A stretch of DNA of 64,000 bases, from the NCBI GenBank assembly GCA_033439295.1, contig JAVTLE010000018.1:186001-250000 (forward strand), given 5' to 3'. This DNA comes from Deuterostichococcus epilithicus (lineage: Eukaryota > Chlorophyta > Trebouxiophyceae > Prasiolales > Stichococcaceae). How positions within the stretch are numbered: the first letter of the stretch is position 1; each line of letters begins with the position of its first letter. Of the stretch, positions 1,767 through 43,850 are shown piece after piece. A program made the position numbers and the translations under genes. Under the pieces are notes generated by a model that made no database searches, had not been told where the DNA came from, and saw nothing but the letters and a program-made list of their open reading frames with translations.

Positions 1767-2056
1767 ACTGCTGCTATAGGGCTGGTTTAGCGTGGAAGGT
1801 TGCGAAGGTTTTTACGCTTTGAAAAGGGCGAACAGAACGAATCGACGGCACCGAAACCACTGTGACAGAACGGGGCCCTGCAGTGCTGACGTGGCCTCAA
1901 TCTGTCTTTCTGGAGGTACTGGAAGTAGGTTCTGAGTTCCGACGTGCTGCGTTCTGAGGTTAGCGACTGCTTACAAGTTGGAGGAGAGTTTTGAAAACGA
2001 GAAGTGCAAACGAGAAGTGTAAACAGGAAGTGTTCTGCAAATGTGCCAGCGCCATG

Positions 2057-2065
2057 CTTTTATAG
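2057..2065 (-). promoter_or_regulatory. TATA box of the LTR promoter
   Basis: The minus strand reads CTATAAAAG here, about 290 nt upstream of the gag ATG. Short direct repeats (AACGAGAAGTG-like) follow at 1996-2030, near where transcription would start. A TATA box at this place in an LTR defines the U3/R border. Confidence 0.55.
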
Positions 2066-2390
2066 CAATGTTCCCAAGTCTAAGCCCTGTACTGCCTGAT
2101 GCACTATTCCCGTCTCTAGAACGTTCACAATCGCGAGCATCATCTAGAGTATTCTCTAAAGGCGTCCAGACTGTTCGATGGCAATCGACGTGAAGTTGGA
2201 GTATGTAATGCTGACTCACGCAACGTGGTGACACGTGCGTTCTCCGACACCATTCTGCTATCGAATGGTCGATCATGGAGCTGATGTTCATCGAGGTAAG
2301 CTACTCGCATCAGCATAGTGAAGTCACCCTTGCCACACCCAAAAATCAACTTTCACTTACGTAGACAATGCAATGGAACGTTCCGTGGAT

Positions 2391-2988
2391 GTAAAACATG
2401 GCGGCCATGCCACAGCTTGTGCGGCGTCCTCCACGCCTGTTTTGGAAGACGACAACCTCACAAGACTGTGAAGCAGAACAAGCCCGCGTTGACAGTGCAG
2501 CAAAATCGACAGCACCACCGCCCTTTGGACTTGAATGATGTCCGTGCGTTGACTCAACAGATGAACAAATAAGGTTAACAACTCAAATGGGACGCCTTTC
2601 ATTATCACTGTGTCGTGCACAAACAGATGAACGACGTGGCTCTAAAATGTGTTATGTGATGAAGACCTGAACTATCAGCTATGAGTACCTAATGGCGCAA
2701 CAGGTGCCGCACCTCGATGCTCCAACATGCCTACATACCTCTGGGGGTGAGCACGTGTGTGACCCAGCAAAACACTCGTGTCACCCTTTGCAGCACTCGT
2801 CTGCTGTTGATCCGGCAACCAAACGACCCCAAAATAGCTAGGGACGTTCCAGGATATCAGCTGTCCGAGAGCACATAAACGAACCTACAAGCTTCATATA
2901 ATGATCCGATTCCCGGCAGCTTGCTTGCAGCGCTACAAAGCTGGACCAGACAAAAACGAACCACAGTCGAGAACTCACACCGTACACG
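2391..2988. other. Gene-poor interval between the retrotransposon and the esterase gene
   Basis: Short unrelated ORFs only. It probably holds the 3' UTR of the minus-strand esterase gene. No clear polyadenylation motif or repeat was seen. Confidence 0.4.
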
Positions 2989-4446
2989 TCATTCCGTGCA
3001 TATCCTTCCCAGCATTTTCTGCGTCATGAGACTGCTCAGCGCCATGCTGATGTTTGGGCTGTGGTAGTAGGCGATGCTGCCAAAGTGGAGTAGATCTGTG
3101 GAGTAGCGGCGAGCATCCCCTCCCACCGGCAGAAAGTCCCGCATGACGTCCGCCACATTGATGAATGGCAGCCCCTCCCTCTCAAAAAAGTACTGCGCGC
3201 GCAAGGCAGTGCGATGAGAGCTTTAAGCACTACAAGTTGTTGAGAGCATATTGAAGTCCACATCCACTGCAAGTCAGCCACTGTGCACGCACACAACCCG
3301 CGCTCACCTGCGCCAGGGCGTCCAGGCCCATCACTTCCAGATGAAACCGAGTCTCCGGGCTCTGAAATGACTTGCTGCCGAGGTAAAAGGCCCTGGACTT
3401 CGAGCCCGCCGTCAGGGCGCGGAGCCGCGTGGCGAGCAGCTGCACCTCCTGCTGGAACGCCGGCAAAACAGCGTCTCCGCCAAAGACGTCGTGCATCCCA
3501 GAGTTGATGACCACAAGGTCAGGCTGCGGACACTTCGCGACGCCGCCGTCCCGCTCGTCGCGACCGGCTGTTCCATCCGCTGACGCCGAGCCTGTGGCGG
3601 AGGGCTCGCCCAGCAGGCACTGCACTACCGGCGCCAGGTTTGGGTGGCGTATCGAGCCGAGCCCGCCGCCTGCAGCTCCGATGTCCTGATGCCCTGCAGC
3701 AAGGCGACGATGCACGATTGCATTCCGTCGTCGTGGGATGTTAAAAAAAACTATATATTGCGCGCCCACAAGCCCATGCTGGACGACAAGCTGCAGACAT
3801 CAGCCTCACCTATGTAGCGTTGCACAACGCTGATGTTGAGCGATGGCAAGGCGATGTCGAAGTCACGGTGGGAAGCACGGAATGTGACCTCGACTGGCCC
3901 GTCCACGTCGTGGCCGCCCCTGCCGCCTAGCGCCGGTATCTGCAGGTGCGCCTCCCCTGGGACTCTGGTGGCGGCGTTGATGTGCTCGTGCAGCGCTGTG
4001 CTGTTCGTCGCTACGCCGCTCAAGAGTATCGACAGGTCATGTGCCGTCTCTGTCATGGTGGAGTCGCCCAACAGCACGAGCCGCTTGTTGTGCAGACAAG
4101 ATCGTGCGGCTTTTGTGTCAAACAGCTTCAGGCCGCAGAGCACTGAGGCTGGTACGGCGCCATCGAGGTCTGCAATTTCCGGCAGCCAGGCGCCCCCGCA
4201 GACGTCGGGCGAGCACTTGGCTGCAGCGGCGTCCCACACCACAAGGAGGTCCGCTGCATCGAGGCTGGCGCATTCAGGATGGTCTGCAACGGTTGCATTG
4301 CCCCCCAGGCGGACATCGCAGCCCATCCATGACCGGAGCAGGGCGCTGACCACGAACAAGGCTGTGACACCAGTGATGGTCCTGAAGACCATCAGCAGCG
4401 TCCTCGAGTCCGGGGCCCGGGAGGAAACGCTCCTGGGCCTGTGCAT
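2989..4446 (-). CDS. PC-esterase / Pmr5-Cas1p-type GDS acyl-esterase-like protein
   Basis: Three exons join in phase: 4446-3810, 3693-3308 and 3192-2989, giving 408 aa. Residues ~18-40 form a signal anchor (LLMVFRTITGVTALFVVSALL), so a type II Golgi/ER membrane protein is likely. The family's catalytic blocks are visible: VLLGDSTMTE (GDS serine) at ~123-133, VVINSGMHD in exon 2 and DLLHFG (Asp-x-x-His) near the C-terminus. Cysteines are frequent in the N-terminal half. Members acetylate or deacetylate cell-wall polysaccharides or glycans (plant TBL, fungal Cas1p, animal NXPE); the substrate here is unknown. All joints are GT-AG and no lesion was found. The neighbouring genes also look like glycan modifiers. 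Confidence 0.78.
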
Positions 4447-6629
4447 TTTCGGCGCATGCCCCTTTCAAAGCAAGGAAAGCAACAAGCTTCTGTGTGTGAT
4501 CCGACGAGCGCTCACCCTTGGTCGCCTTGGTCGCCCCTCGTACCGTGGGACAGCACGCAGCACACAATGGAATCGTTGCTGGTTCAGCCGCCGATTGTAC
4601 CGGTCGTGCGGTTTCCAGTTGGGTCCTCAACGTTCAAAAACTTTTCAACGAATCGTGGTTGGCCGCCAACTGAACCAACGGCGGTTGATTTGAGATTTGT
4701 GCTGACTGCCCTATCTGTTGGTACCAAATTGCGTTTTGTCGACGATTCCATGAACATTGCGTAAAGCTGCTGGTGTGCCAGCCCAAGCCGTGAGCGGATG
4801 GCCCTGGTCACTGTGACGCGCCCGGCAGATATGGGAGTGCTGATCGGGGCTAGATCCTCACGCTTTCAATTGGTCCACGCAGCGTAGCATGCATGCTTGC
4901 TTGGGCTTCCTGCTGTCACTGGCCGTGATGTTGCTGCCGGGTAGTGTGTCGGCGCCTCAGCAGTGGGTGTTGCAGGGGAGATCTGGCACACCATCGCCAA
5001 GGCCTCGCAAGTCCGTACACAGTTCTATCCCTGCAACCTGATCTGAATGCATGAATCATCCCACTTTAGCTGTTGGGCCCTCCTCGAATGGGCCTTTCCG
5101 CTTAAGCATCAAGTAGGCATTGCCAGAGACAACTCGTGGTTACCCCGCGAAAAAACCCACTGAATCAGGCCGCTGCGGCATGCAATTGGGCACCTCTCTG
5201 CATTGCTACGTCACGGTGCCTCGCTCACGCTCCCCGGCACAAAGTGCGACAGACGGCTGCTCTGCCGCTATGCCGCAGCTGACCTTTGGCGACGGCCTTG
5301 TTTCTCCCTGCCAGTTGCACTGGCCTCGGTGCTGATCTTGCCCCTCCCTGCAGGGCACATGCTCTGCAGCAAGGCAAGCCGCTTGCGACCTTGCCAACAC
5401 TTCAGCCACACGGCGGCGGCGCAGGTTGCTCTGGTCTACTCACGTGCAACATGTTGAGTGCTCTCAATGTCCGGCTCTCATGGCAAAACAGATTTCTGCT
5501 TGAAGCAGCTTTCCCCTTCCTGCACAGTTTCAGTCAGTGTCTTCGCTACGATGGAGCGCATCCCCAAAGTGCAAGCGGGCAGAGTGCACTCGCGCGTGGT
5601 CGGGCAGACTTGCAATTTCAGCTCAGTAAGTACTTATGGTGTAGCGGTGCCTCTACACCCGGGGCCCACAAACGCGAGCGCCTTAAGGCATTGTTCCACG
5701 ACACACCACTTTGCATTCATGCTCAAAGTGGTTGCCAATAACCTGAAGTGAGCGTCGTAGTTTTGGGACCCCCGGAGTGATTCGCCAGATGAGAGAGAGA
5801 GCGAGATGTTTACCACCTTTCCAGCCTCACTCAGGCTGATTAGGGTTGAAGCAGAACATAGAGCTGATCGTCTTGTTCAAACTTGTTTACAATCGTTCCC
5901 ACTAAATCGTCACATGATAGGATGAAGCCTTGCCAACGATACAACATACAGCCACCAAAATACTGTTGGGTGCCACCCGTCGCTGCCGTCTCTCTGCATC
6001 GCATCACCATCCGATTATCCCCGCAGCATCATCTCCTTCAAGGCACATCACCGTGTGATGAAGCAGGCAGCCGCTGCCATCACCACATGGCATGTTGCAG
6101 CACACAGCGCAATCATCATCGCGTTTGCTGACCGCGGCAACCGCCCCTCGCCTCGACGTCCTGCACTGCATATCCCACAACCAGAAGCGACAGCGTCATG
6201 CAACTCTGTGTTTTGGAGCAGCTTCAGGCATGCAAGCATGGCATTCATGGCACGTGGCGGCAATACATGGGAAAGTCCGCTGGCAATATGCTGCAGCTCC
6301 GTTTTCTGCGCCTTTTGTGGATATGCTGGTGGAATCAGGCCCACTGCAGGCTGACACTGCAGAGCGCAAGCGCGCGCACTTTCACCCGCCTTGCCAGGCT
6401 CAGGGCTGGGCCCGCGACGGCGGTGCGGCCAGAGCCCGGCGCGGAGCTACTTGCGTTTGCAGCGACGTCGGCAGAGCAATGTTGCGCCCTCTTCAGCATT
6501 TTCGAGCCTGTGCTCGTGGCTTTTGACACTTGCACGCCCATGCTGCAGCAGGTCGACCTACTGACGCCGCCCTCCGCCGCCACTGATTGATGTGTAGTTG
6601 AGGCAAATCTATCCGGCTGTCAGTGAACG

Positions 6630-6810
6630 CTGGATGCCAGAGAGGGCCCCCGTCAGCGGGTAGGTGAGCAGGCTATCAGACAATTTGATCTGGGTCGACA
6701 GCGTTGTCGATGCCGCTTGCTCTGGTAACAGCTCGACCAGAGTGCCAGCGAAAGCTGGCTCTCAGAGTGCGCCCCCGACAGCGGGGAGGTGAGCAAGCCT
6801 TCAGACAACG
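6630..6810. repeat. Decayed direct repeat, two copies ~120 bp apart
   Basis: The segments at about 6633-6684 and 6755-6808 share the core GAGGTGAGCAAGCCTTCAGA or close variants, preceded by GCCCCCGNCAGCGGG. They look like an old tandem duplication. Confidence 0.6.
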
Positions 6811-7539: not shown

Positions 7540-7990
7540 ACCTTTAAAAGTAGCCACTGGCGCTCCTTGAGCTGCGATATTTGCTCCTCGCCTCCTTGGT
7601 TCCTCCGACTAGGAGGCCCTCTCATAATAAAGGCTACCTTTTCATTCTTCTCCTCCCACCCGGGTGTGGAAGGCAACCGTATCGTTGTATTGCATGTGCC
7701 CCCGGATGGGAGGAGAGATGTGGCAAAAATAGCAGTTTGGTGCAAGTGCGATCTGTGTTGCGTGCCCGGATAGGACATAGGAGGAGAGATTTGGCAAAGT
7801 AAAGTTGGGTTGTAGGCGCACTTGCAGCCCGGATGGGAGGAGAGAAACGGAAAAGTAGCCGATTGGGCTGTAGGTGGTGCATTTTGCCGCCCGGATGGGA
7901 GCAGAAAAAAAAGTAGCCGGTCGGGCTCCAGGTGCAAATGATGCTGCACGGATGGAGGAGAAAATTGCTGAAGCAGCCGACTGGGCTGAA
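7540..7990. repeat. 60-64 bp minisatellite with one inverted unit
   Basis: The core CCCGGATGGGAGGAGAGA recurs, with variation, near 7701, 7765, 7828, 7889 and 7948, spaced 59-64 bp, each followed by an A-rich stretch and GTAGCCGATTGGGCTG. At about 7628-7666 the reverse complement of the same unit occurs (CTTCTCCTCCCACCCGGG). The array could therefore fold into a long hairpin. Confidence 0.85.
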
Positions 7991-25818: not shown

Positions 25819-28800
25819 TCACTGTCTCTGAAGCCTGGAGTCTGCGACAGCCGCCTCCGACACGGCCGGTGTGGCCACCGCTGCGCCGCCGCCGGCCGCG
25901 GCAGCGCTGCCGGCCGCAGTGTCGCCGGCGCTGCCACTCACAGCTCCCGCCGCGGGAACTCCCCTCAACGCTGGAGGCCCCGCCGCCGCCGCCGCCGCTG
26001 CGGCACGCGCCTCGGCGGCGCGCGCCTCGGCTAGCTGCGCCACGACAGTCTCGAGGGCGCCGCGGAACACGGCCCGCATGTCCGCGATGTCCGCCTCCAA
26101 GGCTGTGATGCGTTCCGTGCGCTCCCCCAGCGCCTCCAAGCACAGCCCCAGCCGCCGCCGCTGCTCCTGCACGGCGTATGGCACTCCTGGTGTCTTGCGC
26201 AGCCCAGACATGCTGCGCCTACTGCCACAAGTTTCCGTCTGGGCCCCCCGCAATCACCGTGGCTCCGGCAGCAGGCCTGCGGTGGATCTCGCAAAAGACG
26301 ATGCTCGCCAGGCACAGAAAGCATCCACCGCGATACGTCAGCCTCTGCCCTTCAGGACCCGCTGGACGAGCGCAGCATGTGCTGCGTGACGCTGCGCGCG
26401 TCCGCTTGACATCGCACCTGCAGCTCCCGCCGCAGGTCGGTTGCTGCCGCCGCATCACGCGCCGCCTCAGCCTCGCGCGCCGCCGCGGACAGCGCCTCCT
26501 CCTGAAGCGCTGCTCGCTCCGCTTCTGTGCGCCGCACCTGTGGCAGGGGGTTCCCCGAGGCCTTGGTCGGAGGGCTCTACAACTTTGTAGAGCAGATCTT
26601 CAGAGAAGCAGAGCAGGTCGATGGAGGATATTCCTTGTAGAGCAGAGCAGAGCAGGGCAATGGAGGACAAGCCGCAGTTGCAGCCGCGCGCCTCTGCAAC
26701 CGGGGGCGGCGACATGAGAGGGGCGAGGCTGACGGAATGATGCAAGTCCGATGGCTCGCAGGCGCACCTGCTGTTCTAGCAGCGCGATGCGCTTCTCTGC
26801 TGCTGAGCCGCTGGTGGGTGCCGCAGCTGATGGGCGTCGGCTGCCGCCGCTGCCGTGCCCCGGCGGCGCCATGAGCGATGACACCCAGTCGCCCAGCTCG
26901 TCGCGTTCTGTGCTTGGACACCGCTGTACGTCAGTCGACTCGGGAGCACACACAATAACGTCTGCAGGACCACCCACATCACACGATCTGCTGCCCCAGC
27001 GACCCACGAAGCAAGGCAGGCCGGCCGCCCGGCACTCTGACCACCCAGTGCAGAGGGGTGACCCACCGGCAGAAGGATGCGACCGTAGTCGTGCTGCACA
27101 GCCAAAAGGTGGATGCGTGCTTGGCGCTCTGTGCTGCGACAGCGCGCTCACCTGCGGCACCGTCTTGCTGCGGGGCAGCTGGGGCCTGCCATAGCTCGTC
27201 TGCTGGTTCTGCAGCCCCTGCATGCTGCGCTCGGCTGCCGTTTTCGAGAAGCTCATGCGGGGCTGCGCCGCGTGTCCTAGCAGCGGCGGAGCCCGCCCCC
27301 GCTGTCTGTGCCTCGGCCAGCTGACGCTGCAGCCGCTCGCTGGCGGCGGCCAGCGCACGTCCCTGCGCATGCACTTGGGGGCCGCGTCTGGGGCGTCCGA
27401 TCAGACTGTCGTGTTTTGCATCGTCATGTCTCGTAGCTTTGTTGCCCGAGCTTCGTGCCAGGACAGCTGAACGCGGGTAGTTATGGTTCTGCCGCATGCG
27501 AAACCATGTGTCACGTGTGTGCATCCGACCTGGAGCTGCTGGCCTCCGAGAGGGTTTAGGGATTAGGGGCCTGCAGGCAGCTCACCCGGTCCTCGGCAGC
27601 CCACAGCTGCTCCCGCCAATCCCTGGCCGCCGAGGTCGCGACGCGCTCCGCCTTTTGAGCGGCCGCCTGAACGGAAGCCAGCTCATCCGCCAACGCTGCC
27701 GCCCGCGCCTCAGCGGCAGACGCCCTGTGAAGGGGTAGGCATCTGCCCGTGAGCCAGCCGACAAGGCGCAGCAGTCGAACAGCACCGCCAGACGAGGAGG
27801 CCATGCAGGAGGACCGGTGCCCTCTGCTGCAGGCAGCATGCTGCTGCTCCCGCCAATCCCTGGCCGCTGAGCCGCCATTGTCGGTCACATAAGGCCTTGC
27901 GCGAAATCGCGTAGCTTGCGACACCCACCTAATTCTGCCCTGCTCCATGCTGGGCGGATGCATCAACACGTGAGATGCGCCGGCACACCTGCGGCGCTCG
28001 GCCTCCAGGCTGCCATGGGCTTCTGCGGCCCGCCGCGCCGCNGCCGCCGCCTCCGCCCGCGCCGCCCCGGCTGCCGCCTCGACGGCGCCGCATCGGGCGG
28101 CACCAGCGCGTTCCTCCGCCGTAGCCTTGACTGCAGCAGCCTCGACGTCCGACAGCCGTGCCGCCAGCCGGGCCTCCGCCTCGGACGCCGCCCGCTGCTG
28201 AGCCTTGGCGGCCGCCGACATCGCCTCGATCTGCCTGCAGTGCACAGCCGCTGTGGTGCTGTTTCGTTCCACAGATCGGATGCCGAGTGGGGAGGACACG
28301 CGCAAGTCGAAGTGCAGCCCAGTGCTTCTGCCACTACAGCGGCGGGGGCCACATCGACAGGCTTCAGTGCCCGGCATTCGTTGCAGTGCCTGCCATGTGG
28401 CACATGGAGCCACAAGGTGCTCCTGTTGCTCCCACCACAGCTTGTGAACAGCCATCAGGCAGTGTCAAAGTAGAAGGATTCACTTTTCAACTCGAGATCT
28501 ATCTTGCACCTGAGCAGCGGGCGGGTAGACTCCGACGCCGACGCCGCCGCCTCGGAGAGCGCCGCCTCGGCATCGCGGGCGCGCGCTTCAGCATTCGTAG
28601 CCTCTCGCCGCAGCCGCGCCTCGCTCGCCTCAGCGCCCGCCGCCGCCGCCTCCAGCTGCTCCTGCAGCTCCTGCGCGGACACGGTCGCTGGCGGCAGCTG
28701 AGCACCGGTGTCAACACTGGCGGGTGAGCGGATTGACGTCCTGCTGGGGACATTCGGATTTCACGTGCCATCCTGACAGGGAAATGGGGAGGTCGCTGGG

Positions 28801-31046
28801 GAGGCGGGGGGAGATGTGTGCAGCGCAGGGTTGCGTGCTCTGGCAGTGCAGGCCCGGGCGCGAGGCGGCAGAGGGGGCGTCGGCACCTGCAGGCTGGCCG
28901 ACAGCTCCGCCTCACGTTGCCGCGCCGCTTGCAGCGCCTGCTCATCGCCCCTGCGCCCAGCTCCATAGCTCTGAAACCGATATCGAACACGTGCGGGGTG
29001 CGCAAACACGTGGAGTTGATCTGTTACGCAATTCCGCCCCCGACCCATGATGGGGAGGACCCGATTCGGATCTCTGACGATGGGTTCAGGCTAGGATTCA
29101 GGCACCGCCGAGCACACGTGCAGCGACCCGCCTGGCGCTCGAGGCGGAGGCGACGGCCTCATCGGCGGCGCGCCGCGCGGCGGCGACCTCCCGCCGCGCC
29201 TGCGCACGCTGCTCCGCGAGCTGCGCCTCCAGCGCCTGGACCCCCTCCGCGGCGCGCGCCGCGGCGGCCGCCGCAGCCTCCTGCTCAGCGGCCACCTGGG
29301 CGCGGCGGGAACGGCGTGAATGCACGTTCAGCCGCCCTGCCCGGGTCGTGCAGTGCCTGCTTGCCGGTCTGGGAGCAGGCATCAGCCCACGGCGCTGGTG
29401 GACAGAAGCACCAGAACGGCGCCTGTGCCCCGCGTGACCGGCGACCCTCCGAGAGCCGCGCGCGGGGCCCCGCCCCCGCTCGCACACGGTGGCTGCCCAC
29501 CGATGCCTCACCCCATCGCTGCTCCCGAACGCTTCCGCGCCATGGCCACAGCGAGCGCAGCGCCCACTTGCTGCGCCCCAGCCCCGCATGTTGCGTTCCG
29601 ACTGCTCATTTCGCGCACATGCAAAGTGAGGGCGCGCACACCTGGGCCTCCAGCGCCCCGGAGCGCTGCGCCAGGCGGTCCAGCTCGGCGTCGGAATGGC
29701 GGGCGGAGGCGCGCGCCCGCCGCAGCGCCGCCTCCAGCTCCCCGTTCTTCCGCGCCAGCGCCTCCCCCTCGGCCTGCGGGCGCAGCGCCGCGGTCAGCGC
29801 CCTGAGCGCCCACCGTGCTGTCCTGGTCCGAGATCCTCCCGCCCGACGCGCGGGGTGACGCAGCCGCACTGGCCTGGGCATTGCACGATGCCAGGGCGCC
29901 CTTGTGCGCACCACCCTGAGGTGCAGGGCAGCAATCAAGGCCCGGTGCCAGCACACATTGCAGCCGGCAGCAGCGTGCCGCTGCTCTGTGGGCACCGCCG
30001 GCTGGTGTGTTGGGCCCCGTGCAGCCAGCCTTTCTTGCTTGTTTGTTCTTTTCCAGCCCCGCACCCCTGCGCCCGCACCTGCAGCGCCGCCACCAGGGCC
30101 TGGCTCTCGGCAAGCCGGCCGGCCGAGTTGTCGGTGCCCCGCGCCGCAGCGCTGGCGGCGCCGCGCAGACCGTCCCGCTCCTCCTGCGCACAGCGGCTCG
30201 CACAGGCGGGGTTTGCAACAGTTTGCATTGCTGCAGCAGGCCTCAAACTCCTTTGCGTCCTCAGCAGATGGTGAGGCGGTCTTCTGCGCACGTCCGCCCC
30301 CTGTCCTGAGCGCCCGTCATGCTGCAGGCGTGGCCGCCGCCTGTGCGCGGCCCACTGTCCGGTGACCGCGCACAGCAGCCCAGCAATGGCTGCATCACGC
30401 GGCCGCGGGGGGCCGCTAACACCTACCTTGAGCTGCGCAACGGCGCGGTCCGCGGCGCCCAGGCGGCGCTGAAACTCCTCCTGCAACTCCGCCAGCTCCG
30501 CCGCGCCGCCATGCGATGCCTCCTGTCGAGTTGCAGGACAGGATGCGCGTCAGCGCGGCGGCATAACGTCGCAGTCGCTGAGCCGTCCTCGGGCTGCTGC
30601 CGAGGCATTGGTGGGCCTTGGCACGTGGACCATGTGTGACCGGTAATGCACACTTCCGCCTGCAGTCGGGGGGCGACTCAGGCCAGCATGCTGGTCGTGG
30701 CGCTCCTGATGAAAGCGTGACAGGGCACTGACAGCGCGGCACGGCAGGTGCGAGATGGCTCGCGGGGCACGGGCAGCGGAAGGGCGCACCGCTCGGAGCG
30801 TGTCGTTCTCCTTTTGCAGTGCGCCATTGATCACGGTGAGCGTGGCAACCTTGCCCTCCAGCTGCTGGACCCTGCACCAAGCGGCAGTGTCGCCGCTGAG
30901 CGGCAGTGCCACCGTCCAGTGATGGTCGTGCGCAGGGCCATGGCAACCAAGGACGCAATCAAGCTCGAAAGCGTGACGATGGCAAGCACGTTTGTGCATC
31001 CAGCAACTCGCCTCTTCTTGAGGCTCTGGTCCTGTGCGCCAGCCAT
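25819..31046 (-). CDS. TMF-like golgin (Golgi coiled-coil tether)
   Basis: A chain of coiled-coil exons runs from 31046 down to 25819, most joined in phase. The first is 31046-31012 (MAGAQDQSLKK), joined by a GC-AG intron (AGAG|GCGAGT) to 30871-30790 (VQQLEGKVATLTVINGALQK). Later exons lie near 30510-30428, 30185-30070, 29785-29643, 29300-29105, 28980-28890, 28700-28490, 28240-27990, 27730-27580, 27370-27130, 26850-26775, 26537-26398 and 26175-25819. The last encodes LEALGERTERITALEADIAD, like the C-terminal Rab-binding region of TMF1 and plant golgin GC5, then an Ala/Gly-rich tail. TMF proteins tether vesicles at the Golgi. The known N-terminal half of TMF is missing, so the start may be further upstream. 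Position 28042 is N. Confidence 0.72.
27601..27876 (-). repeat. Duplicated golgin exon fragment in the adjacent intron
   Basis: The 3' part of a golgin exon (27601-27637) and an intronic segment (27840-27876) share CAGCTGCTCCCGCCAATCCC (plus strand; CTGCTG in one copy) and the following TGGCCGC. The copies are 239 bp apart in direct orientation. Confidence 0.8.
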
Positions 31047-31663
31047 GGCCTGGCGCTACGGCGCCAAGTCAAGCTGCTGTGCAGGCTGTGCGGTCGAGCC
31101 GATTACCAGCCCGCAGTCTCAGTGCCGTAAACAATCCCTCATACTCACGTTGTTGGCTGCACAACGGTCCAAACGAAGTAGGTGCGATACCTTTCGCAGA
31201 GATCAACCAGAGATCAACTCGAAAGCTTGCCATGGGTTGACAAACTTGCAGCCTTCAGATGATGACATATGGGACTATAGGACGAAGGGCACTACGAGAA
31301 CGTGAATTCACCAAGACTTTGCAGTGTGCAAGCTGACCAGAAGGTTACTGAGATCGCAGGTCCAACATGTATCAAGCGCATGCGGAAGGCGGTGACCCTG
31401 GACCAATAAGAGAAGGCTATGTGAACAGAAACGTGAGGACAGCGCGGTGTAAGGTATGATCTTCGGTGGCTTGCATCAGTACCGTGCTGTTGCAGGTCTT
31501 CGCAGTGCAGGGTGGGTGGAGTCACGGAGTCAGCAGCGGCATGGCATGATCAGCCTTGGTGCAGTGCTGCTGGGGTGCCTCACGGCTTGCGATGTTCTCA
31601 CGCTTCAAGCGCCGATCAGAGTGTTACAGCACTTTGACCTGCCAGCAGAGCATCTCACAGGCA
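31047..31663. other. Intergenic interval between eIF2 gamma and golgin
   Basis: 617 bp; eIF2 gamma 3' UTR with TGTAA at 31624-31628 (minus) and the presumed golgin promoter. No gene supported. Confidence 0.45.
31624..31628 (-). terminator. TGTAA polyadenylation signal of eIF2 gamma
   Basis: Minus strand GCTGTAACAC, 36-40 nt after the stop codon at 31664-31666. Confidence 0.55.
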
Positions 31664-34600
31664 TCATGGTCGCCCTGGCATCGATATACTGAGGCCCTGC
31701 GCCGAACACAACGTATGACTTCAAATGTGACTCTGAAGCGCTCAATCTGAATCGCAGGATTGAACACACCTTTGCGCACGCATGCTGCAGGAGGGGTTGC
31801 AACATACACAAAGGGGCGCCCTACCTTTTGTATCTGCCCCCATCCGATCAGCCGCCAGTGCTTCTCAACGCGCCGGCTGAGCGCAATCTTCTCCCCCTCC
31901 TTGGTGCACACCGGCGAGGTCAGTTGCAGCTTCGCCAGATCGCCCTTCACCTGCAGGCGCGACACCGGAGCAGTGCATGAAGTTGAGCGTCACTTTCAAA
32001 CACCGATCAGCAGACTGCCAGCCGCAGAGCATGAAAATCATGCACATGCCCGCAGGGCGCATCGCGGCACAGGCAGCCAGCTGCAGTGCCACCGATCACA
32101 GACGACTCGACTTCGAGAACTGGCGAATCTCCTGAGGGGCGCGCACCGCGAGGACCTTGGCGCCGGTGCACATGGAGCCGATGTTGAGCATGAGCACCTC
32201 CGACTTGCTCAGCTTTGTCACCTTGCCCTGCTTCTCGCCGCTCTGCGCGCACATGTTGGGCAAAACGTCAGACGACAGGCGCTTTTCGAATGCCGCAGCA
32301 CTGCGGCAAAAGGCCTCCGGGACCCCTGGCCACATTCCGCAGCACGCCGGACCCAACGAAGCCGCGAAACTTCGCCGAGCCGCAGAGGCACACCCCGTGG
32401 CACAGGTGTTCCCAGAGGCTGCCGCACGGCGAGTGTCCCAGGCAGCATCCAGGTCGCAGGGTCCCTGCAGGGTGCATGCCCCCAAGACACGCAGGGCCGC
32501 TCTTCGCCGCACCGTGGTGCGCACGCCCAGCAGGCGGCGCAGGAGGAAGAAGTTGATTTCCAGCTCTGTGAAGACGTCCGGCAGCTGCCCCACCTCCCCC
32601 AGCACCTGCCCCACCAGCCTGTCCGCCCGCGTCAGCGTCGGGTCCACCTGCGCCACGCGAATAATATATACGTTCCCCGCGATGGTGGAATCCAGCGCCC
32701 TGCGAATGGCATGCTGCAGCGGGACGTCGTTGTGCAGATGCGTGACAGCCAGCGCGTCCCAGCGCCTGCTCCAGCAGGGCTGCATCAGCCAGGTCGGGTC
32801 CAGCTGCGCGTCATGGTTTGGTCGTGGCCGGGGAGGCGGCCGGGCACAGCCTCCTGAGCGTACTGTGATGTCGGTCCCCCGGATCACATCCAGCATGCGC
32901 CAGCTGAGAATGGCGCCCTCTGCCGATGCCCGGAAGGATGCCAGAGGCCGTGCGCCGCAGCGCGGGTGTGGCAAACGCTCCCCAGACTGCTGCTGGCAAC
33001 GAAGCAGTGCGCACCGTCATGCCGACGCCGATGAGGCCGCCGGGGACCGCAAACTGCAACGTGTTGTCCTCGGCCTTGAGGGACACGATGCGGGAGTAGA
33101 TGGGCAGGCAGGCGGCACGCCCCTCCGCATCCTTCGTCACGATGCCCGGCCGCACCTCCACCTCCTGCCCCATCTTCAGCACGCCCTGCGGTGACGAGGG
33201 AAATCGAAAGCATAGAGTACACTGCTGAGGTGCTGGTCCCTTCGCATCTTTCGCTGCGATGCCGGGCCGCACATCCACCTCTGCCCTGTCTTCAGCACAC
33301 CCTGCAGTGACGAGTGGAGATCGAAAGCGTTGAGAGGGCTGAGGTCCTGGTCCGTCCGCATGTTGTGTCACGGTGCCGGGCCGCGCGTCCTCCTGCCCCC
33401 AACTTCAGCAGGCCGTGCGGGAAGCACTGCGTTACCGGCGTCAGGGATTGGGGATGGCTGGCAGGAGCGCGCAGGGCCTGCACACCATGACAGGCTGCTG
33501 GCCCCCAATGTTCCGCTCGCCCTGCGCGGCCAGGAGAGCACGTCTGTGTTGCGACGGCGCCTAGCGGCGTTGCCAACGTGTGTCCGCCTTGCGACAGGTT
33601 TCTGCCTTTCACGTCTGTTCTGACACGTGGGTTATGCCTTGCCTGTCTTTCTCAGCAGCCTATCATCATGCAGTGGTGCCATATCGTTGTGTCAGCATGA
33701 CGCGCTTCCACAGTGTGCGGCAGCGAGGCCGCCAGCAGAGGCCGCCCGGCAGCTCGTGGTCCCGCCACACGGCAAACTGCAGGCCAGCAACTCCAGAGCG
33801 GCTCGACCAACAACTTCTGCAGTGGTGCAGAGGGTTTGGTGCTCACCTGCAGGATGGAGCCGCCGGCGACGCCGCCCTGCAGCTCCTCCACCTCTGAGCC
33901 CGGCTTGTTGACATCAAAGGAGCGAATGACGATCATCTGCGGCGGCGACGTGAAGTCCCTGCACAAGAGCAGGCCAGGACAGTGGGTGTGCTGCTCGTGG
34001 CAGCGATGCCCGGGCCCCTGGCAGGCGACTCTGATGAGTTGCTGCAGCGACTGCAGTGAGTGAGCAAATCGGCGATGCGACGGCAACTCAGGTTGCAAAT
34101 CAGGTTGCAAATCAGCATCGAGAGGAGTAGCTGGCAGAAGACGCAGGTGGTTTTCCTCACGGGCCAAAGAACGAATCGAGGAACCAGCCTACCGCACGGG
34201 CACCGGGATCTTCTTGACGATGTACTCGCACACGGCATCGATGTTGTACTTGAGCTGCGCGGAGATGGGCACCACCGGCGCGCCCTCTGCGATGGTGCCC
34301 TGTGCAGAAGGTAGGTCAAAATCAATGTCGTTTCTCATGCACAACGAGTCAGGTCCAGGCAAGCAGCAAGCCCACACCTCTCGAATGTTCAAGTTTTTTC
34401 AAGCTCGCTCCTCTCGAGGGTTCAAGGTCTTTCATGCTCAAGAAGATGAGGGCGGAATGCAACGATCCAGCAAGCCGCACCTGGATGAACGCCTGAATGG
34501 CGTCGTGCTGATTGGTGGCCTTCGCCTCATCGATGAGGTCGATCTTGTTCTGCAGGATGATGATGTGCTTCAGCTGCATGATCTCCACCGCCGCAAGGTG

Positions 34601-35746
34601 CTCTGCGCGCACGAACAGGGATTCACACATCAAGATGTCAGGCAGGATGTTAAAAGTTCTCCGAGGTCGATGCATGGCTTGTCCGACCAGGACTGCCATG
34701 GAGGATGTCAAGTCAGGACGCGGACTGCACTAACCCGCCGAGGCTGTGTGACTTGGACGCCTGATGCAAGCGGTCGCGCAACAGGGGGCACGCAGTGTCT
34801 GAGATGGCGTGCCTGATGTCTGCGGCTGCGGGCACGTCTCGTTGGCCGCGATCAGCAGGAATGCGCCATCCATGACCGCCGCGCCGTTCAGCATGGTGGC
34901 CATGAGAATGTCGTGCCCCGGGCAGTCCACAAAGGACACGTGGCGGAGCAGCTCCATGTTGCTGCCCTCGAAGCCGGGTACCTCGCACGCCGGGTTGTCC
35001 TCCTTCGAGGAGCCGTAGGCCCTGTAGCAGGCGGGCCTGCGAGAGCGGCATGCACAGAAATCAGCCGCATGGAACCCCAAGCGTCAGCGGGGCAAGTGAC
35101 AGAGGCTGCTGTTTCGTAATGTCAAATGAAGTATAGAAACTTGGTATGGAGAGGGTTGCTGGAGCATCGTTGCCTTGGTGGAGTGGCCGGCTTGTAAACT
35201 CACCGGGGGCAGCGCGGGTCCTCTGACTTGAAGATCTTGGCATTCGCATAGCCGAGCTTGATTGTGATGTTGCGCTCCAGCTCGTTCTTGAAGCGCACCG
35301 TCTGCACGCCCGAGATGGCCTTCACCACCGTTGACTTGCCGTGCGCCACATGCCCGATGGTGCCTGCGCGGAAGAGCATCCTACGTCATCTGCTGCCATA
35401 ATGCCGGCGGCGCCAAAGGGCGGGTCCATTGGGCTGCAAACCGCGGGGCCGCCAAACCGCGGAGCAGCAGACTTGCGCTACCCCAGCAGCTGGCACTCAC
35501 CGATGTTGATGGTCGCTTGCCTTGAGATGACCTCTGGCGTCAGTGGCGTCAGCTCCGTCACACTGAGTTTAGAGAGGTCCTGTTCCAGTCGCAAGCACAC
35601 AGGTTACCACGTGGCATTTGGATGGGTTGCAACACCTCATGGAGCATCCGTGCACCGATGCAATAGTATGTGTTGACAGAGTAGGCCTCGGATGAGAACA
35701 TGCAAGTCCCACGTTCCCGCACCTGCTCCCGCAGCTTCTTCGACAT
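31664..35746 (-). CDS. EIF2S3: Translation initiation factor eIF2, gamma subunit (GTPase)
   Basis: Twelve exons: 35746-35723, 35579-35501, 35363-35204, 35036-34813, 34602-34481, 34299-34193, 33958-33847, 33185-33015, 32647-32513, 32242-32147, 31950-31825 and 31696-31664. They sum to 462 aa, the normal length. G1 is [10 protein letters not shown]3 is VDCPGHD, G4 is QNKIDL and G5 is [11 protein letters not shown]. The Cys-rich insert ([12 protein letters not shown]...NPAC) is present. The C-terminal domain reads [17 protein letters not shown] and [13 protein letters not shown]. With alpha and beta subunits it carries Met-tRNAi to the 40S ribosome. The intron 34812-34603 is GC-AG (TCAG|GCACGC). 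The last 10-codon exon is the least certain joint. Two decayed copies of exon 8's start lie in the preceding intron. Confidence 0.95.
33117..33440 (-). repeat. Three tandem copies of an eIF2 gamma exon start
   Basis: The coding copy (33117-33185) is followed at ~115 bp intervals by two decayed copies (about 33232-33300 and 33345-33415). All three share the acceptor, GTGCTGAAG-like start and the GCGGCCNGGCATC core, plus intron sequence (GGAGATCGAAAGC-like) between them. Copies 2 and 3 have indels that break the frame. Confidence 0.85.
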
Positions 35747-36810
35747 GACTACAGCACTCCACAAGCAGTCAGTCGGTGACGATCGATAGAGTCCTGGTGT
35801 TCAGGCCCCCAGCAACCCTTCGCTAGCAGTTGAGCAAGGCTACTGAGCACTAAATCCAGCGGAAACACAATCCAAATTCCAGCAGCCGCCGGCAGCTCAG
35901 TCTATCGGGATGCTCAAGTCTTTTGCTGCGTAAATGCTGCTATCTGCACGCGTTCAATGTGAATCAGCTTCGCACCCGGTTTGCAGCAAGCCGACAGGGA
36001 ACGGAGCAGTGCGACACTGCCCGCAGATTCCTATGCGGGAAGGTCGTAAGCACCTAATCGCGCTGGCTTTCCAAAGCGGAGGTGCAAGAGCGTGCCGATC
36101 CGGTGACCCGACACGTTGTTGGTCCGGAAAGAAACTAGCCTGGGTTCAATGCGTGCAGCAAGCAAGAAGTGCGCCAGTGGCTGGGCCAGCGATTACTGGG
36201 TTCTGCGGCACGCGCTATTGTTCTCGGAACGAGCCGACCAAGTTGCACACGCGCATAGGTGGGGATGCACGGTCGCAAGACTGCAACGATCGGCACCGCG
36301 CACAACTATTCGACACCAAGTCGGGCAGGCAGACAGCGGGCGTACGACCCCCGCAGCGCTGACGCCTGTGCGTCTAAAATCCCAACCACCTGCCATGTGG
36401 ACACGAGCCGCGACCCTAACGTCGGCAGTTCACCTACACAAGACGTCAGCTAAAACCTGGAGCGGTGCCCCTGCCCAGGGAACGCCTCTGCGGGCAGTGG
36501 TAAAATTGAACGCCGCGGCGCGAGCGCAGCCGGCGAACGGCGTCCGCCGACCCGGCTGCGCCCGCTGCGAGCGTGGTTGCAGTGCCGGGAGCGAGCGCTT
36601 CTAGAGGCGCGAGCTCCTTGCCGTGGCCAAAATCCGACTCGCTGCCTGGCGCCTTGCGTGACGGAGCGGCCGCCGGCAATCCAGGCCGCGGCCTTGCAGG
36701 ACCGATGTATCAGCAAGGCCCGCAGCCGTGGAGGCCCGCTCCCGCCGTTGCCCAGCGAGGCGCAGCCGCGGTGCCGCGGTTGCGGGTCACGGGCCGGTCC
36801 GCAACGGGGG
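35747..36810. other. Intergenic interval between transportin and eIF2 gamma
   Basis: About 1.06 kb; the eIF2 gamma promoter and transportin 3' flank. Plus-strand ORFs here (up to 162 codons) have no recognisable domain, and the larger ones overlap the transportin C-terminus antisense; I do not accept them as genes. Confidence 0.45.
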
Positions 36811-39800
36811 TCAGCCATGCTGCAGCATCGCCAGCATCTTGTCGCGTGCCGCGGGCGACATTGCCGCCAGCACCAGCTGCCATTGGCCGCGGTCCACCAG
36901 TTCCGCCTGCACCAGGAACATGGAGGTTCCAGTCAGATGGTCAGGGTTGGAGCAACACAGGCAGATTGACCGCACATGGACGTCAGGCTCCATCTGCCGT
37001 CTGTTGAGCGGCCACTGGGCTCTTGGGCGACACCACTCAAGACAACAGGTGCTGCAGGCAGCGGACGGTGCAGCCGGCAAGCCCAGCAGGTACTGAATCG
37101 CCATGCAGGGGTGCGCTCGGCAGGTGTGGTAGCTTGCATCGACTGCCCAGCGCAGGATCTAGTTTCCTGGTCTCAACTAAACCCACCTTGTGCAGGTTGA
37201 GCATCTGTAGGATGTCCGCCGCAAGCCCCTCGTTGTGCAGCGTCTGCCACGACAGCACCGCCTCCACGATGCTCTTGAAGGCGGCCTGCGATGCCTGCAT
37301 CGCACGACTGGGGTCTCAGGAAATCGGCGCCAGCTGCTGTGTCTTGAGTCTTGCTGCAGAGATGGAGATGCAGCACACAGCCGCGGCAAGCACGCTGTAC
37401 ACATGTTGCTCTTGCTCCTTCCCGTGCCCCTCCTCCTACTCGCCAACCCCACTGGCAGGCGCAGCCGCTCCAGTGACTGCTGCCCGCCTGGGGGATTTGT
37501 GCCGCACGGCGCAGCGGAGCCCCTGGAGAGTAGCGGCTGCGCATTCATCCTTTCCTGCTTTGAACACTGCCCACCTGGGGGTTATGCCGCATGGCGCAGC
37601 ACAGGCCCTGGAACGCATGCTCCTTCTCCACGCCGTCGTTGAGCAGCCGCAGCGCCGCGCACCAAGGCGTAAGAAAGTGCTCCAGGTGAGGAGCCACCTG
37701 CGGCGGCAGCGGCGGCGGCAGCAGCGTCAGCAACAAGAACGTTGGGAGAGAGAAGAAGCCTGAGGACTATGTGAATGATCTAGATCACGTTGCTCTCTGT
37801 TCTGTGCTCGAGAGTGGCTGAGCCGCCATGTGCTGTGCCCGACCATGCACCATGGTCCTGCATCGCCGTGGGGCAGCCCAGTGCAGGCGGGCGCGGCAGC
37901 TGCCGCCGCCGCCTCATCACCGCATCCGCAAGCTTCAAACCCAGGAGCCCCTTGTCGTAGGGGCGGCTGCACATGCTGTGGGCGGCGTCTGCCGTTGGGC
38001 GCGGGGGCTGGTTGTGATCCGCTCACCTGCGCGGGGCACACCCAGGCGATGCGGCCGAGGGTGATGGCGGCGTTCTCCACCAGGCTGCGCGGCATCTGGC
38101 CCATGGCGGCGCCGAGAATGGGCACCAACCGCTCCGCGATGGGCGCCGCGAAGGGCGCCAGCTCCTCCGGCCGCTGCTTGATCGCCAGCTCGCCTGCGGG
38201 TCGTTGCGCAGGGTCAGTTTCCAGCGACGCTGACTTTGGGTTCGGCGAGTGGTTCAGTGCAGGCGGCATCCGCCACGCTGCCCCGCATGGGGAGATGCTT
38301 TCGGGGCACACGGCTTGCCGGGTTGCGGCGTTGCCGGGTGCAAGCGGGCGGGATTTCCACGCCCTGACTCGAGCGACATGTAGACATGCAGAGCCTGTCA
38401 TTCCTATGGAACAGCGCGCGCACCCAGGGACCAGCAGGCATTGTTGCAAGCGGACATGGTGGCTGCGGAGATGGCGGGCGCCTCCAGGTTGGCTATCGAC
38501 AGCGCCACCAGCTCCGTCAGTGCGGCGCCCAGGTACGGCGCGCACACCTGCGCAGGTGGCACAAGGCTCGTCAGAGTTCGGACTCGTTAGAGTTTAGGAA
38601 GTTTCACGTCCCGTTTGGGTTCCCCTGTAGACATTCCGACTGGTGCACCACCGGCTCCATCCGCGCCGCGCCCGGGTACGGCGCACATCTGGGTGAGAAG
38701 TCTTTTGGCGGACGGTTTGGCGGTTTGGCAACCTGGTAATGGCCAGCCTGGCAGCCACAAGGCCGAGTTTCGACAGCAGGCGCCTCGTGACAGCAGCGGC
38801 TTCAGGCCTCGAGGAAAGCGCTGCAAGTTCTGCTGGTTTCAGTTTGTGGCAAGGCATCAGGTCATAGCAAGGCGGGCAAGAGTGCAGTGAGCGGTGGAGC
38901 GCCGTCAAGTCTCCAGGTTTGCAGTGCGAAGGAGTTCTGCATTGTGGCGATGCGCAAAGGGGACGAGGCGGGTCAGGTCGTGGTAATGGGGTTTAGGCAC
39001 ACCTTTGCCAGGTCGCCGACGAGAGCAAAGGCGCTCTGTCTGATGTCTGGTGACGCATCCTGCATCCAGCCAGAAGCACAGCATCAGGCGTCCTGAGCGT
39101 CGCGCACAGTGCGGAGATACCGGAGGTCTTCCCTACATCCAGCAGCTGGGAGACAACCAGCCATGCGGCGTGGCCGCCAGCCGTTATCTCCTCTCAGCGG
39201 CACTTCCAGCAGCATCCAAACACAGCCGCCCCGGCGACGAGCCGTGGACCGCCACCCCAGCTGTCCGCCTGACCACTGAGGCCGTCCAGCTGCATCCGGA
39301 CGTTCCGTGAGTGTGTCCAGGTAGCAGAGCTCCTCGCGGCGCAGACTCGCCTGGCAGCACTGCAGCAGGATGTCGCGCAGCGCGGTGGGCGCCGCCCCCG
39401 CGCGCGACAGCACCCCCTCGAAGCGGAAGCCCAGCGCCTCGGCCACGCCCGACAGCGCGTCCAGGCTGCACACCACGTAGTCCAGGTCCGCCTCCGGGTC
39501 GGCCGCCTCCTATGGGCGGGTGATGTCCAAACAAGATTTCATTGTGTTTCAGGGGATAGTGTCAGTCGCGAGCTGCACACCACATAGTCCAGGTCCGCCT
39601 CCAGGTCGGCCGCCTCCTGTGCGGGTGATGATTTCAGGGTTTAGAGTGTCAGGGTGGTTTAGTGCCAATCGCGGGCTACACACACATAGCACACATGTGC
39701 ATGTCTGCATCCGGGTCTGCCGCCTCCGCATGCGCGGTTCTTGAGGGTTCAGGGTGCGCCAGAAAGGTCACAGGCTGCACAGCATGCGGGTTCAGCCTCC

Positions 39801-42800
39801 AGCTTCCTGCGGCAGCGGAGCCTGAACTGCGGCTGCAGCCGCCTGCTGCTGCCGGCTGTCGCGTCCTGTGCTGCTGCTGAGCGTCAAGCAAGCCGCAGGG
39901 TCGGCGGGCCGCTCAGAACCACTCCTCGGACACATGGGAAAGAGTCGGCAGGGAGGCGGTGGTGGGCGGAGGCCAGCAGACCAAAGCGCACCTTGGGCGC
40001 CATTTGGCGCGACAGGAGGTGCGCGCTGAGGATGCGCATGCATCGCTGGAAGGTGGCTTCTGCGTACTCCTCAAAGGCCGGCCCTGCACGACAGGGTTTT
40101 GCAAGCCAGGTTTTGGCTTCCGTCAAACTTCTGGACACCGAGCGAGGTCACGCAACGCAGCGTGCCAGGGAGGCTTCCGGGCTGCCTGTGAGGGGGCCGC
40201 TCCAGCAGCCCGCAAGCCAGATGATGCGGGGACAGCGCATTGTCTCCATGCCGACTCGACGCTGCCGCGATGCAGACCTGCAGAACCTCCACGCGAGGCA
40301 GCCTCTGTGCGCATCAAAGCTTGGCCCACGCCGCCCCTGCAGTGGGGGACCCCGCCCGATGCAAACAATGCAGCCGGCAGCAGAGGCTCTATGTCAAACC
40401 CACGAGCGGCAGCACGCGGAGCGGCGCCCCCACCGATGGCGGTGGCGATGGTCATGAGGCACTCCATGAGGGGCAGCAGCTCGCCGTCGGCGTCCGGCAG
40501 CGCGCCCCACTTGGCCAGCAGCGGCGGCATCAGGATGGTCAGCAGCGAGGGCTCCGCCAGAGCGCGCCCGACGGCCTCCGCCAGCGTCGACAGCGTGTCG
40601 TACAGCATGCGCACGTTGCGGCGGCCGTACACCAGGCACGCCTGCGCCAGTGTCTCCAGGATCGCCTGCATTCAGGAGAGGGGAACCCTTTCAGGGCCGG
40701 AATTTAGGTCAGTCAGGGTTAGGGAACCATCTTGAGTATGTTGAACGCCGTACACCAGCACCGCCTGCGCCAGCGTCTCCAGGATCGCCTGCGGGACACG
40801 AGTTAATGATTAACTTTCAATCCATACTGTCAGTTTTCGGGGTCTGCTTGACGGCATCGCCCTTGCGCATGTCGGTGTTGCGCTGCATCTGCCAGGCGGT
40901 TGGTTGGACTCCGGCAGTGCTGCCCGCTGCCGATCCTGCAGCCACTGTTGAGTGCTGATGTGTGACAGCACCAGGTTGCAGCCGCAGCATGTCCGTGAAG
41001 CGACCCATCGTCAGACAGAATGTGTTTGCACAGCGCCAGGCACCTGGTGGCCTGGCCCAAAAGGCAGATGCACACGCCTGGCTCTGCGGATGGCATCACT
41101 GGGCTCTGCGGGTGGCATCAGCTGTCACTGAACCCCAGATAGCGCACCCGCAGGCGCGGCAGCAGCTCGGGGCCGGCCTGCTCCTCCAGGGTGGCCAGCG
41201 CGCTGCACGCCGCCTCCTGCACGTGCTTGTTGCGGTCCAGCACCCGCCCCAGCAGCCCCTGCGGGCGCGCGTTTTGCAAGTTTGCTGCTCTGGCGCGCTG
41301 CAGCGAGGAAGATGTGACACAGACGCCGGTGCACAGGCGGTAACACGGTGATCTGCGGGCGGCAGCTCGGCGCTTGCTGCTTGCGCGCAGCCCACGAGGC
41401 GTGCGAGCGCCTGGCGATGCTGTGGGCAAAGCGGCCGCGTGACGACCTGGCAAAATGACGACTTGTGCAGCGGCAACATGTGCGAAAGCAAGCGAAAGGG
41501 AGCACAGCAAGTGACGAGCGGGAGCAGAAAGGGGGGGCCGGCGCCCAGCCCACCTCGATGACCAGGTCGAACTGCAGCTGCCCCGCTGAGTGCGGGTCCT
41601 GCCCGTTGGCGACGACCCAGTGCGCATACCGCGAGAGCGTCCAGCATGTGATGCTGCGCACCAGGGGCCGCGGGTCCGCCAGCGCAGGAGCCAGCAGCCC
41701 CACCAGCTCCCCGATGTACGGGACCAGCCCCCGGTGGCAACCCTCGCTGATGGCGCCGAGCGCCAGGATGGCCGACTCGCGCGCGCGCCAGTCCTCGTCC
41801 TGCGGCGCGGCACAAATTCTGTTCGTAACATTAGTGCACCGCGTCAGCGCGAGGCCCGGGTGCGCGCGGGTGGCGCACCCGGCTGACCCCGTCCAGCCGG
41901 ATGCAGGAGTGCAGACGCTGTGTCATCCTGCAATGCTCCCTTGCAAGCGTGCCTCATCTGCCACCGGGAAAGGCGAGAGGTACTGCAGCCGGGTGGCAGC
42001 GCAAGAAGGCGGCGGGCGGCAACCGACCTGCCCACAGCACACCCATGGGGTGGAGCAGATGCTGTCCAGATCAACACTCTCAAAGTCCGGGAAGCTGGGG
42101 GCCTAGGAGCCCCCCCAGGCTAAGGGGGCGCCCACCTGCAGCCGCTGGCGCACGGTGGGCGTGACAAAGGGCAGCAGCTCCTCGCCGTAGACGGTGGACA
42201 GCACGTCCAGCCCCGCGGCAGAGCACTTGCGGATGTTCCAGCAAGCGCTGTCCTTGCCCATGCCCTCGCCCTCCGAGTTCCTGCGGTCGGCCAGGCATAC
42301 AGGGTTTCATTTGTTGCGGTTGCAGAAGTCTGAGCCGCAGGAAGCTGCGCATCCACAACCAGCCTGTGACTGCGATCACAGACCATGGCCGCGGCTCGCA
42401 GCCGAGCCCTCAAGCAGCATGGTGCCGCGTGCTTGCCGAGAGCAGAAAAAAGCCAGCGGTGCGTTCCCCTCCACCATTCTTTTTTGGCGGTCACACTGCA
42501 ATAGAGCTTTGGCCATCGGAGCTCCACGGCGCCAGGCGGCAGCCGGCGGCGACATGTTCCCGCCACCCACCTGTGGTGGAATGGCCGCACATCCGCATCG
42601 TGGTCCGCCGCCGACGGCAGCCCCGCCTCTGCGGCCTCCGTGTCCACAACCTCCTCGTCGAACTCGTCGTACACCATGTTTTTGAGCAGCAGCGGCACCA
42701 GGCGCGGCAGCGCGGGGGCGAGCAGCGCGGGCTCCAGGGGGGAGTCGCAGAAGGCGGCCCAGAACTCGCATGCCTCCAGCGCCAGCGCCTCGTCGTCGTC

Positions 42801-43785
42801 CTGTCAGCAGCCAGATGTCAGGGTTTGAGGAGTCGAATGTTTTGGCCGGCCATACGGGAAAGTCTCCAGCGCAGCGCCTCGTGCTCTTGCTGCTGAGGTC
42901 CAGGTGCCAGGATTTCAATGATGTCAAGGTTTGGAGCCGCACAGGCCTCAGGGATCGTCTGGCAGAAGGCAAGGCGTCGCCGTACGCAATGTGCGGTGGG
43001 GCGGCATGAAAGTGGGCCGCTGTGGCAGGGCTGATGCTGAAAATGACCAGGAGGCTTGGCGCTAAAAACCCAGGACATGCACAGGCACATCCCTGCTCGA
43101 CCTGCCACACATGTTCGCCCCAGTTTGCGGCTTCCGTCAAACCTGCCTTGCCGACGCAGTGCTGGTTTCTGAAAGAGAGGCTGATGCAGATCTATCTCGC
43201 TAGAATGAGCACCTTGTGCAGCAGCAGCACGACCTGCTGCCCCTTCAGCCGGCTGCATGACGATGAGCATGCTCCGCCAGCAACTGCCCTAACCTTGCAT
43301 GGTGAAAGCACCTCCTTTGTTTGTCGCCGGTCATGACTCACTGCCCCGCACACGACGCTGGCCCCTCACCTGCGACGACTCGAGCATGTACTCGATGATG
43401 TCTCGCATCTGCGGCGCCAGCGTCTCTGGCTGCAAGTGCAGCAGCTGCACCAGCCCCGAGCACACCGCGCGCCGCACGCTCGCCGCCGGGTCCCGCGCCA
43501 GGCCAAATAGCCCCAGCCGATACGTCTCCATTGCGGCGCCCAGTCCGCCGGGGACGCTGGCCGCCAGCAGGTTCATGACGCCGACCGCGAGGCGCTTAAT
43601 GTCCGCATGCGGCGAGCAGAACAGGGTCAGCACCCGCGGCGCCAGGCCGCCGACCAGCTGCTCGACGCCGTCCGCCGCAGGCGGCACATCCTCGAGCACC
43701 TGCGCAGCATGGCGCAGGGTCGAGGGTTTCATGCGCGCCGTGCGTCTGCATGACCGTCCAGCGCAGCTCGTTGCTGATGTGCATA

Positions 43786-43850
<65 letters not shown>

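Follow-up and report, generated by a model that had tools for sequence, protein, structure and literature searches.

Introns of three neighbouring genes in a 64,000-nt stretch of DNA from this alga (the window) contain pieces resembling the exons next to them, which raises the question of how such copies arise, what becomes of them and whether they are peculiar to this locus. We analysed the window together with 17 further 10-kb pieces from elsewhere in the genome (L002-L018), which comprises 46.8 Mb on 21 contigs. Gene models were produced by a home-made HMM gene finder trained on the analysed DNA itself, yielding the splice consensus CAG|GTGcGc for donors and YGCAG|G for acceptors, and homology to transportin-1 and eIF2-gamma served to correct the models in the window. 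Transportin as assembled from these models matches transportin-1 (5yvg, E 3.3e-172), and for the eIF2-gamma part the match is 28zu (E 5.1e-213); a TMF domain (PF12325, E 2e-11) marks the third gene as golgin-like. The light-harvesting family PF00504 has 39 exon matches in the genome, and in the PDB one of these exons hits chlorophyll a-b binding proteins, with the green-algal chains 7d0j and 6kac as best single-domain matches; taken with the abundance of introns, this points most probably to a green alga.

An earlier note had listed seven duplicated places with 16 copies in the window. For each place the exon piece was locally aligned to its own intron, to 2000 Markov shuffles of that intron and to 283 introns from other loci. 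All seven were confirmed: each has a same-strand copy of the exon in the neighbouring intron, with a score that none of the 2000 shuffles reached. Scores were 55 for the golgin-like gene, 73 for eIF2-gamma and 44, 46, 80, 67 and 33 for the transportin places; introns from other loci reached the score once for the golgin-like exon and never for the other six places. The weakest place is 42772/42865, where 20 nt align with a score of 33 against a shuffle maximum of 32. A plain repeat scan recovers five of the seven places, while 37477/37566 comes from self-comparison and 42772/42865 from the edge test described below.

All copies and their parent exons lie on the minus strand. In the golgin-like (TMF-type) gene, positions 27595-27634 within the predicted exon 27586-27724 recur at 27832-27871 in the upstream intron (27725-27988) with 88% identity and a period of 237. 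This copy matches positions 90-130 of the 139-nt exon and sits in the intron upstream, so that it does not represent an adjoining exon edge; the description of the duplications as exon-edge copies holds for transportin and eIF2-gamma and has to be dropped for the golgin-like gene. In eIF2-gamma the 5' edge of exon 33015-33185 (33121-33185, the functional acceptor side by homology) is followed by the intron tail with a first tandem edge copy that retains CTGCAG (33186-33305), and by a second tandem copy with flanking sequence (33338-33420), seen in both the repeat scan and the self-comparison. In transportin the place 37477/37566 is a donor-side duplication: the 3' edge of exon 37575-37759 (37575-37612) is copied into the downstream intron at 37480-37527 with a period of 87. 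The remaining transportin and eIF2-gamma copies are on the acceptor side. The 5' edge of exon 38424-38547 (38502-38547) has a copy at 38645-38687, 81% identical with a period of 143, in which the AG is lost. That of exon 39351-39509 (39465-39509) was copied twice, at 39572-39616, which is 94% identical over 50 nt with the AG kept and the intron half still homologous, and at 39697-39737, with lower similarity and the AG lost. The edge of exon 40434-40665 (40624-40665) is found again at 40747-40792, 91% identical over 46 nt with GCAG kept and a period of 123. These four transportin edges were placed by self-comparison and homology, and part of a fifth, 42774-42793 of exon 42571-42800, by the edge test and homology; its weak copy at 42863-42882 covers 20 nt with 95% identity, a period of 89, CAG kept and an intron-half z of 3.3. 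A perfect (TGT)21 tract also lies in a predicted transportin intron, at 43786-43849.

That most copies keep a splice site, as had been stated, is generous. Among the seven window copies whose site was read (all except the golgin one and the third of eIF2-gamma), four keep the AG (exon starts 33301, 39616, 40788 and about 42889) and three have lost the site (on the 37527 side, where GT reads GC, on the 38690 side and at 39726). In the whole sample about half of the strong copies defined below keep AG or GT: AG is present in 7 of 14 acceptor copies and GT in 4 of 7 donor copies, with 1 of 22 unreadable.

Which of the duplicated junctions is used was approached through the homologues. They align across the transportin junctions 37575, 38547, 39509, 40665 and 42800 and across the eIF2-gamma junction 33185, with no need for the copies. 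On this comparison of sequences splicing most likely uses the junction that adjoins the remainder of the exon, and it would be existing introns that have grown. A route to new introns, as suggested earlier, is not supported by these alignments, in which the copies play no part, and no gained intron was identified. Inserts of 10 and 12 residues near 42800 and 33185 stem from small predicted exons that we read as false. Four such exons (33486-33521, 39581-39616, 40756-40788 and 43213-43242) lie inside introns and are unsupported by the homologues; two of them coincide with exon-edge copies. Since 39581-39616 and 40756-40788 were removed before the transportin protein was built, the protein is continuous there in part because of how it was put together. 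The reading frame is open with these two exons as well, and human transportin-1 aligns there with no missing residues. Gene finders can therefore be misled whichever explanation of the copies applies, as two transportin copies were called exons here.

We then asked how widespread the copies are. An edge scan compared 80 nt of each exon edge with the adjacent intron at 712 edges in the window and the 17 pieces, and a strong copy in the edge's own intron was found at 22 of them, 15 acceptors and 7 donors. The phenomenon had been described as one of three neighbouring genes; this framing falls, since copies occur on at least nine contigs. At a score of at least 36, own-edge copies were present at 15 of the 348 acceptor edges and 6 of the 345 donor edges, with none in length-matched foreign introns and none in the antisense of the own intron. 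Far exon ends, serving as a control, gave 0 of 205 and 1 of 206 at this score, and 3 of 206 in antisense at a score of at least 30. For three rows of the scan (L014 9281, L003 4558 and L011 7370) the period exceeds the predicted intron, so their intron-tail z is invalid and was discarded. Only three of the 22 strong pairs fall in the window because false small exons hid the copies at 39572 and 40747; the copy ending at 42882 is also absent, its score of 33 being below the cut, as is the golgin copy, which is not an edge.

Self-comparison of the window and the 17 pieces gave 52 direct-repeat rows with a score of at least 40 at offsets of 40-300, none at 300-1000 and 37 at 1000-6000, where the density per base is far lower than at 40-300. 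No inverted repeat rows were found at offsets of 40-500. The same-strand direct repeat beside its parent that tandem duplication leads one to expect is thus what was found, and inverted copies were not seen. When 56 rows with a score of at least 38 and offsets of 40-350 were classified, 34 joined part of an exon to an intron, 17 were exon/exon, 2 intron/intron, 2 intergenic and 1 mixed. The offset is divisible by 3 in 14 of the 17 exon/exon rows, at 4 loci, nine rows forming one array in L004; the three others (L010, L014 5632 and L017 5026) are perhaps exon-edge copies that the gene finder took for exons. Tandem repeats within predicted exons are seen at L004 1405-1564 and L002 5257-5559, with every offset divisible by 3. 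In the window, 6618-6808 and 7701-7866 are tandem pairs with periods of 125 and 127 in predicted intergenic DNA, which may mark an unpredicted gene.

The strong copies are clustered and lie in long introns. The distribution of the 22 pairs over 23 ten-kb bins is uneven (permutation p 0.0015), with five pairs in each of L003 and L014, between one and three in seven other bins and none in the remaining 14. Introns with a strong copy have a median length of 474.5 nt (22 entries) against 245.5 nt for the others (354; Mann-Whitney p 1.8e-7), and 10 of the 22 strong-copy introns contain a further copy at p<=0.1, compared with 3 of 150 control edges. G+C content did not differ between introns with a strong copy and the others. 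The excess of copies is found mostly in introns longer than 400 nt and is slight at 280-400 nt; pervasive weak copies in every intron, a possibility that we considered, were not seen. Nineteen of the 22 periods lie between 87 and 172, and the other three (209, 224 and 265) may span an intermediate copy. The exon part of the copies measures 38-72 nt in the 22 pairs, with up to 80 nt allowed in the search.

These copies, and the added length of their introns, probably go back to serial tandem duplications that crossed splice junctions and then decayed. We start here from the copies themselves, their same-strand orientation, the match to their own exon, the few arrays homologous over a whole period, the many contigs, the clustering and the longer introns; from these we infer how the duplications arose, in which order, and that the copies are passed over in splicing. 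Tandem duplications of about 80-170 bp would arise along the genes of this alga, and a unit spanning a splice junction would contain an intron tail with an exon head, or an exon tail with an intron head. Splicing at the junction joined to the rest of the exon would restore the original mRNA, so that the event could be tolerated and the intron would gain one unit; recurring events at one edge would build arrays. The spare exon piece would remain recognisable since the parent exon is conserved, and the duplicated intron piece would fade with both copies free to change. Duplications within an exon would survive mainly in frame, and wholly intronic or intergenic ones would fade from view. Exon-only units should accordingly keep their frame, as most exon/exon rows do.

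Duplication across the junctions, as proposed earlier, is borne out where the whole period is homologous, namely in 33121-33418, 39465-39755, L014 9178-9469 and L016 3772-3970; the associated idea of new introns is not. The intron-tail z exceeds 1.64 in 8 of 35 valid rows, which is above chance. Mismatches by codon position (0.095, 0.144 and 0.212; 22 pairs) fit a freely changing copy together with synonymous change in the exon. The fullest duplication in the sample is L014 9178-9469, with 92% identity over 159 nt, a period of 133 and a predicted 3-nt exon in the upstream copy; an intron gain of the potato type (see below) is possible at this site.

Whether the excess at exon edges calls for a bias towards splice sites depends on the age of the copies. 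We simulated units of the observed sizes, placed randomly over the gene models and decayed with 0.25 indels per substitution. Random placement puts about 32% of units over one exon edge, 27% in introns only, 25% in intergenic DNA and 8-9% in exons only. At ages of 0.15, 0.20 and 0.25 substitutions per site, 83%, 46% and 17% of the one-edge units are detectable, as are 57%, 13% and 1% of the intron-only units. The predicted ratio of edge units to intron-only plus intergenic ones is about 1, 2.5 and 11 at these ages, and the observed rows number 34 to 4. For random placement with decay to explain the edge excess, the copies must thus have an age of about 0.20-0.25 substitutions per site; a splice-linked bias, which may or may not exist, is unnecessary at that age and would be needed at 0.10-0.15.

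The two halves of the copies point to different ages. Codon-position mismatches, exon scores and gaps (1.09 per pair) indicate about 0.10-0.15 for the exon halves, while 0.20-0.30 is suggested by the intron halves and by how few intron-only pairs there are. The intron-tail z is below 1.5 in 18 of 21 valid strong pairs, compared with 8-18% of simulated pairs at age 0.12-0.15 and an indel ratio of 0.25. When intron homology was sought by anchored extension, 3 of 21 strong pairs reached p<=0.05 relative to random intron positions and 2 of 21 relative to other splice sites. On the acceptor side the similarity ends about 6 nt into the intron, with 54 of 84 matches at -1 to -6 and 33 of 126 at -7 to -15 (14 pairs). 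Near-identical copies are fewer than a steady rate would predict: of the 22 strong pairs, a 25-nt match in L012 alone lies above 0.90, and the best copy in the window reaches 94%. Three simple schemes of decay were rejected. Neutral decay with uniform ages predicts many young copies and clear homology of the intron halves, contrary to the data; a single old age of 0.25-0.30 fits the intron halves, but predicts median exon scores of 41 and 40 against the observed 50; and higher indel ratios (0.5-1.5) erase the intron homology but predict 1.3-2.5 gaps per pair against the observed 1.09. Possible contributors to these discrepancies are gene conversion from exon to copy, selection on the surroundings of decoy sites, introns that change faster, a burst in the past and assembly collapse.

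Alternatively, a process that favours exon edges may make or refresh the copies, either repeated gene conversion from the exon onto a decayed copy or templated copying of an edge of about 40-70 nt with its splice site. With tracts ending near the splice site, exon halves would be refreshed and intron halves would drift, and homogenisation anchored in exons would shape long introns in some genes. We regard this as unlikely, both as a process and in its consequence for introns. It would account for the drop in similarity about 6 nt into the intron in the 14 acceptor pairs, for exon halves that look younger than intron halves, for fewer intron-only pairs than the exon-half age predicts, for an exon part confined to 38-72 nt though 80 nt were permitted, and for the L012 match, which is 100% identical over 25 nt adjoining a poorly matching stretch. 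Four arrays, however, are homologous over the entire period, 19 of 22 periods lie at 87-172 as for units containing an intron tail, the longest perfect runs average 13.8, close to the 12.7 simulated at age 0.15, and the six conserved nucleotides are those constrained in real acceptors. Should exon edges indeed refresh their intronic copies, this would be a process that plain duplication does not explain.

Selection might instead keep the copies as alternative exons or competing splice sites. About half of them retain AG or GT, and the gene finder called 39581-39616 and 40756-40788 as transportin exons with an open frame for both; yet 23 of 24 alignment gaps would shift the frame, the mismatches are those of a freely changing copy, and human transportin-1 has no residues for either exon, which renders such use highly improbable. 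It is very improbable that the duplications are intermediates in the formation of new introns, whether by the Rogers model or as in potato RdRp. The units do include splice sites, the potato case shares their geometry (PMC4974935), and at L014 9178-9469 the period of 133 is close to the predicted intron of 130, a value that depends on a doubtful predicted 3-nt exon. In the other 21 of 22 strong pairs (periods 87-265) the period is shorter than the intron, whereas the Rogers model has it equal to the intron length, and the copies sit inside introns that join conserved protein. An assembly artefact is hardly credible for copies that are spread over at least nine contigs, are mostly 75-94% identical and show numerous separate differences.

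Short duplications within genes, which can include introns, are reportedly common in eukaryotes (the internal gene duplications of Gao and Lynch 2009), and those of the alga resemble them in being short and within genes. A new intron in the potato RdRp gene goes back to a tandem duplication that crossed an intron-exon boundary; the same paper describes an 83-bp intronic tandem duplication with no effect on gene structure (PMC4974935). As in the alga, the potato unit joins the 3' part of an intron to the 5' part of the next exon, in tandem and with splicing signals; the two differ in that a new intron arose in potato, whereas in the alga existing introns appear to have grown, on many contigs and in serial arrays (PMC4974935). 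For Drosophila, tandemly duplicated coding sequence with a proto-splice site was proposed to have become new introns (PMC2891723). Tandem duplication involving splice motifs is common to that case and the alga, but no new intron position was found in the alga. The passages found in the Coccomyxa genome paper mention no such feature (PMC3446292), and a literature search by titles and abstract openings, with subscription papers mostly outside it, returned no serial exon-edge copies that lengthen algal introns. We thus consider tandem duplication across splice junctions a known type of mutation that is here recurrent, serial and retained as intron length. If this holds, tolerated splice-junction duplications account for some of the length that long introns have in certain genes of the alga, so that rate and fate of such events become measurable in one genome, including the frequency with which a duplicated acceptor is ignored, the speed at which the copies decay and whether new introns ever result.

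A further feature of the introns concerns the telomere-like motif AAACCCT: the 375 predicted introns of the window and L002-L018 contain 35 occurrences in sense orientation, against 2.8 expected from shuffles and 8 in antisense. A link to the copies was considered and rejected, as the motif is present at 0.19 per kb in introns with copies and 0.34 in those without. The 62 AAACCCT/AACCCTG sites lie a median of 38.5 nt before the acceptor and may be part of the branch-site region.
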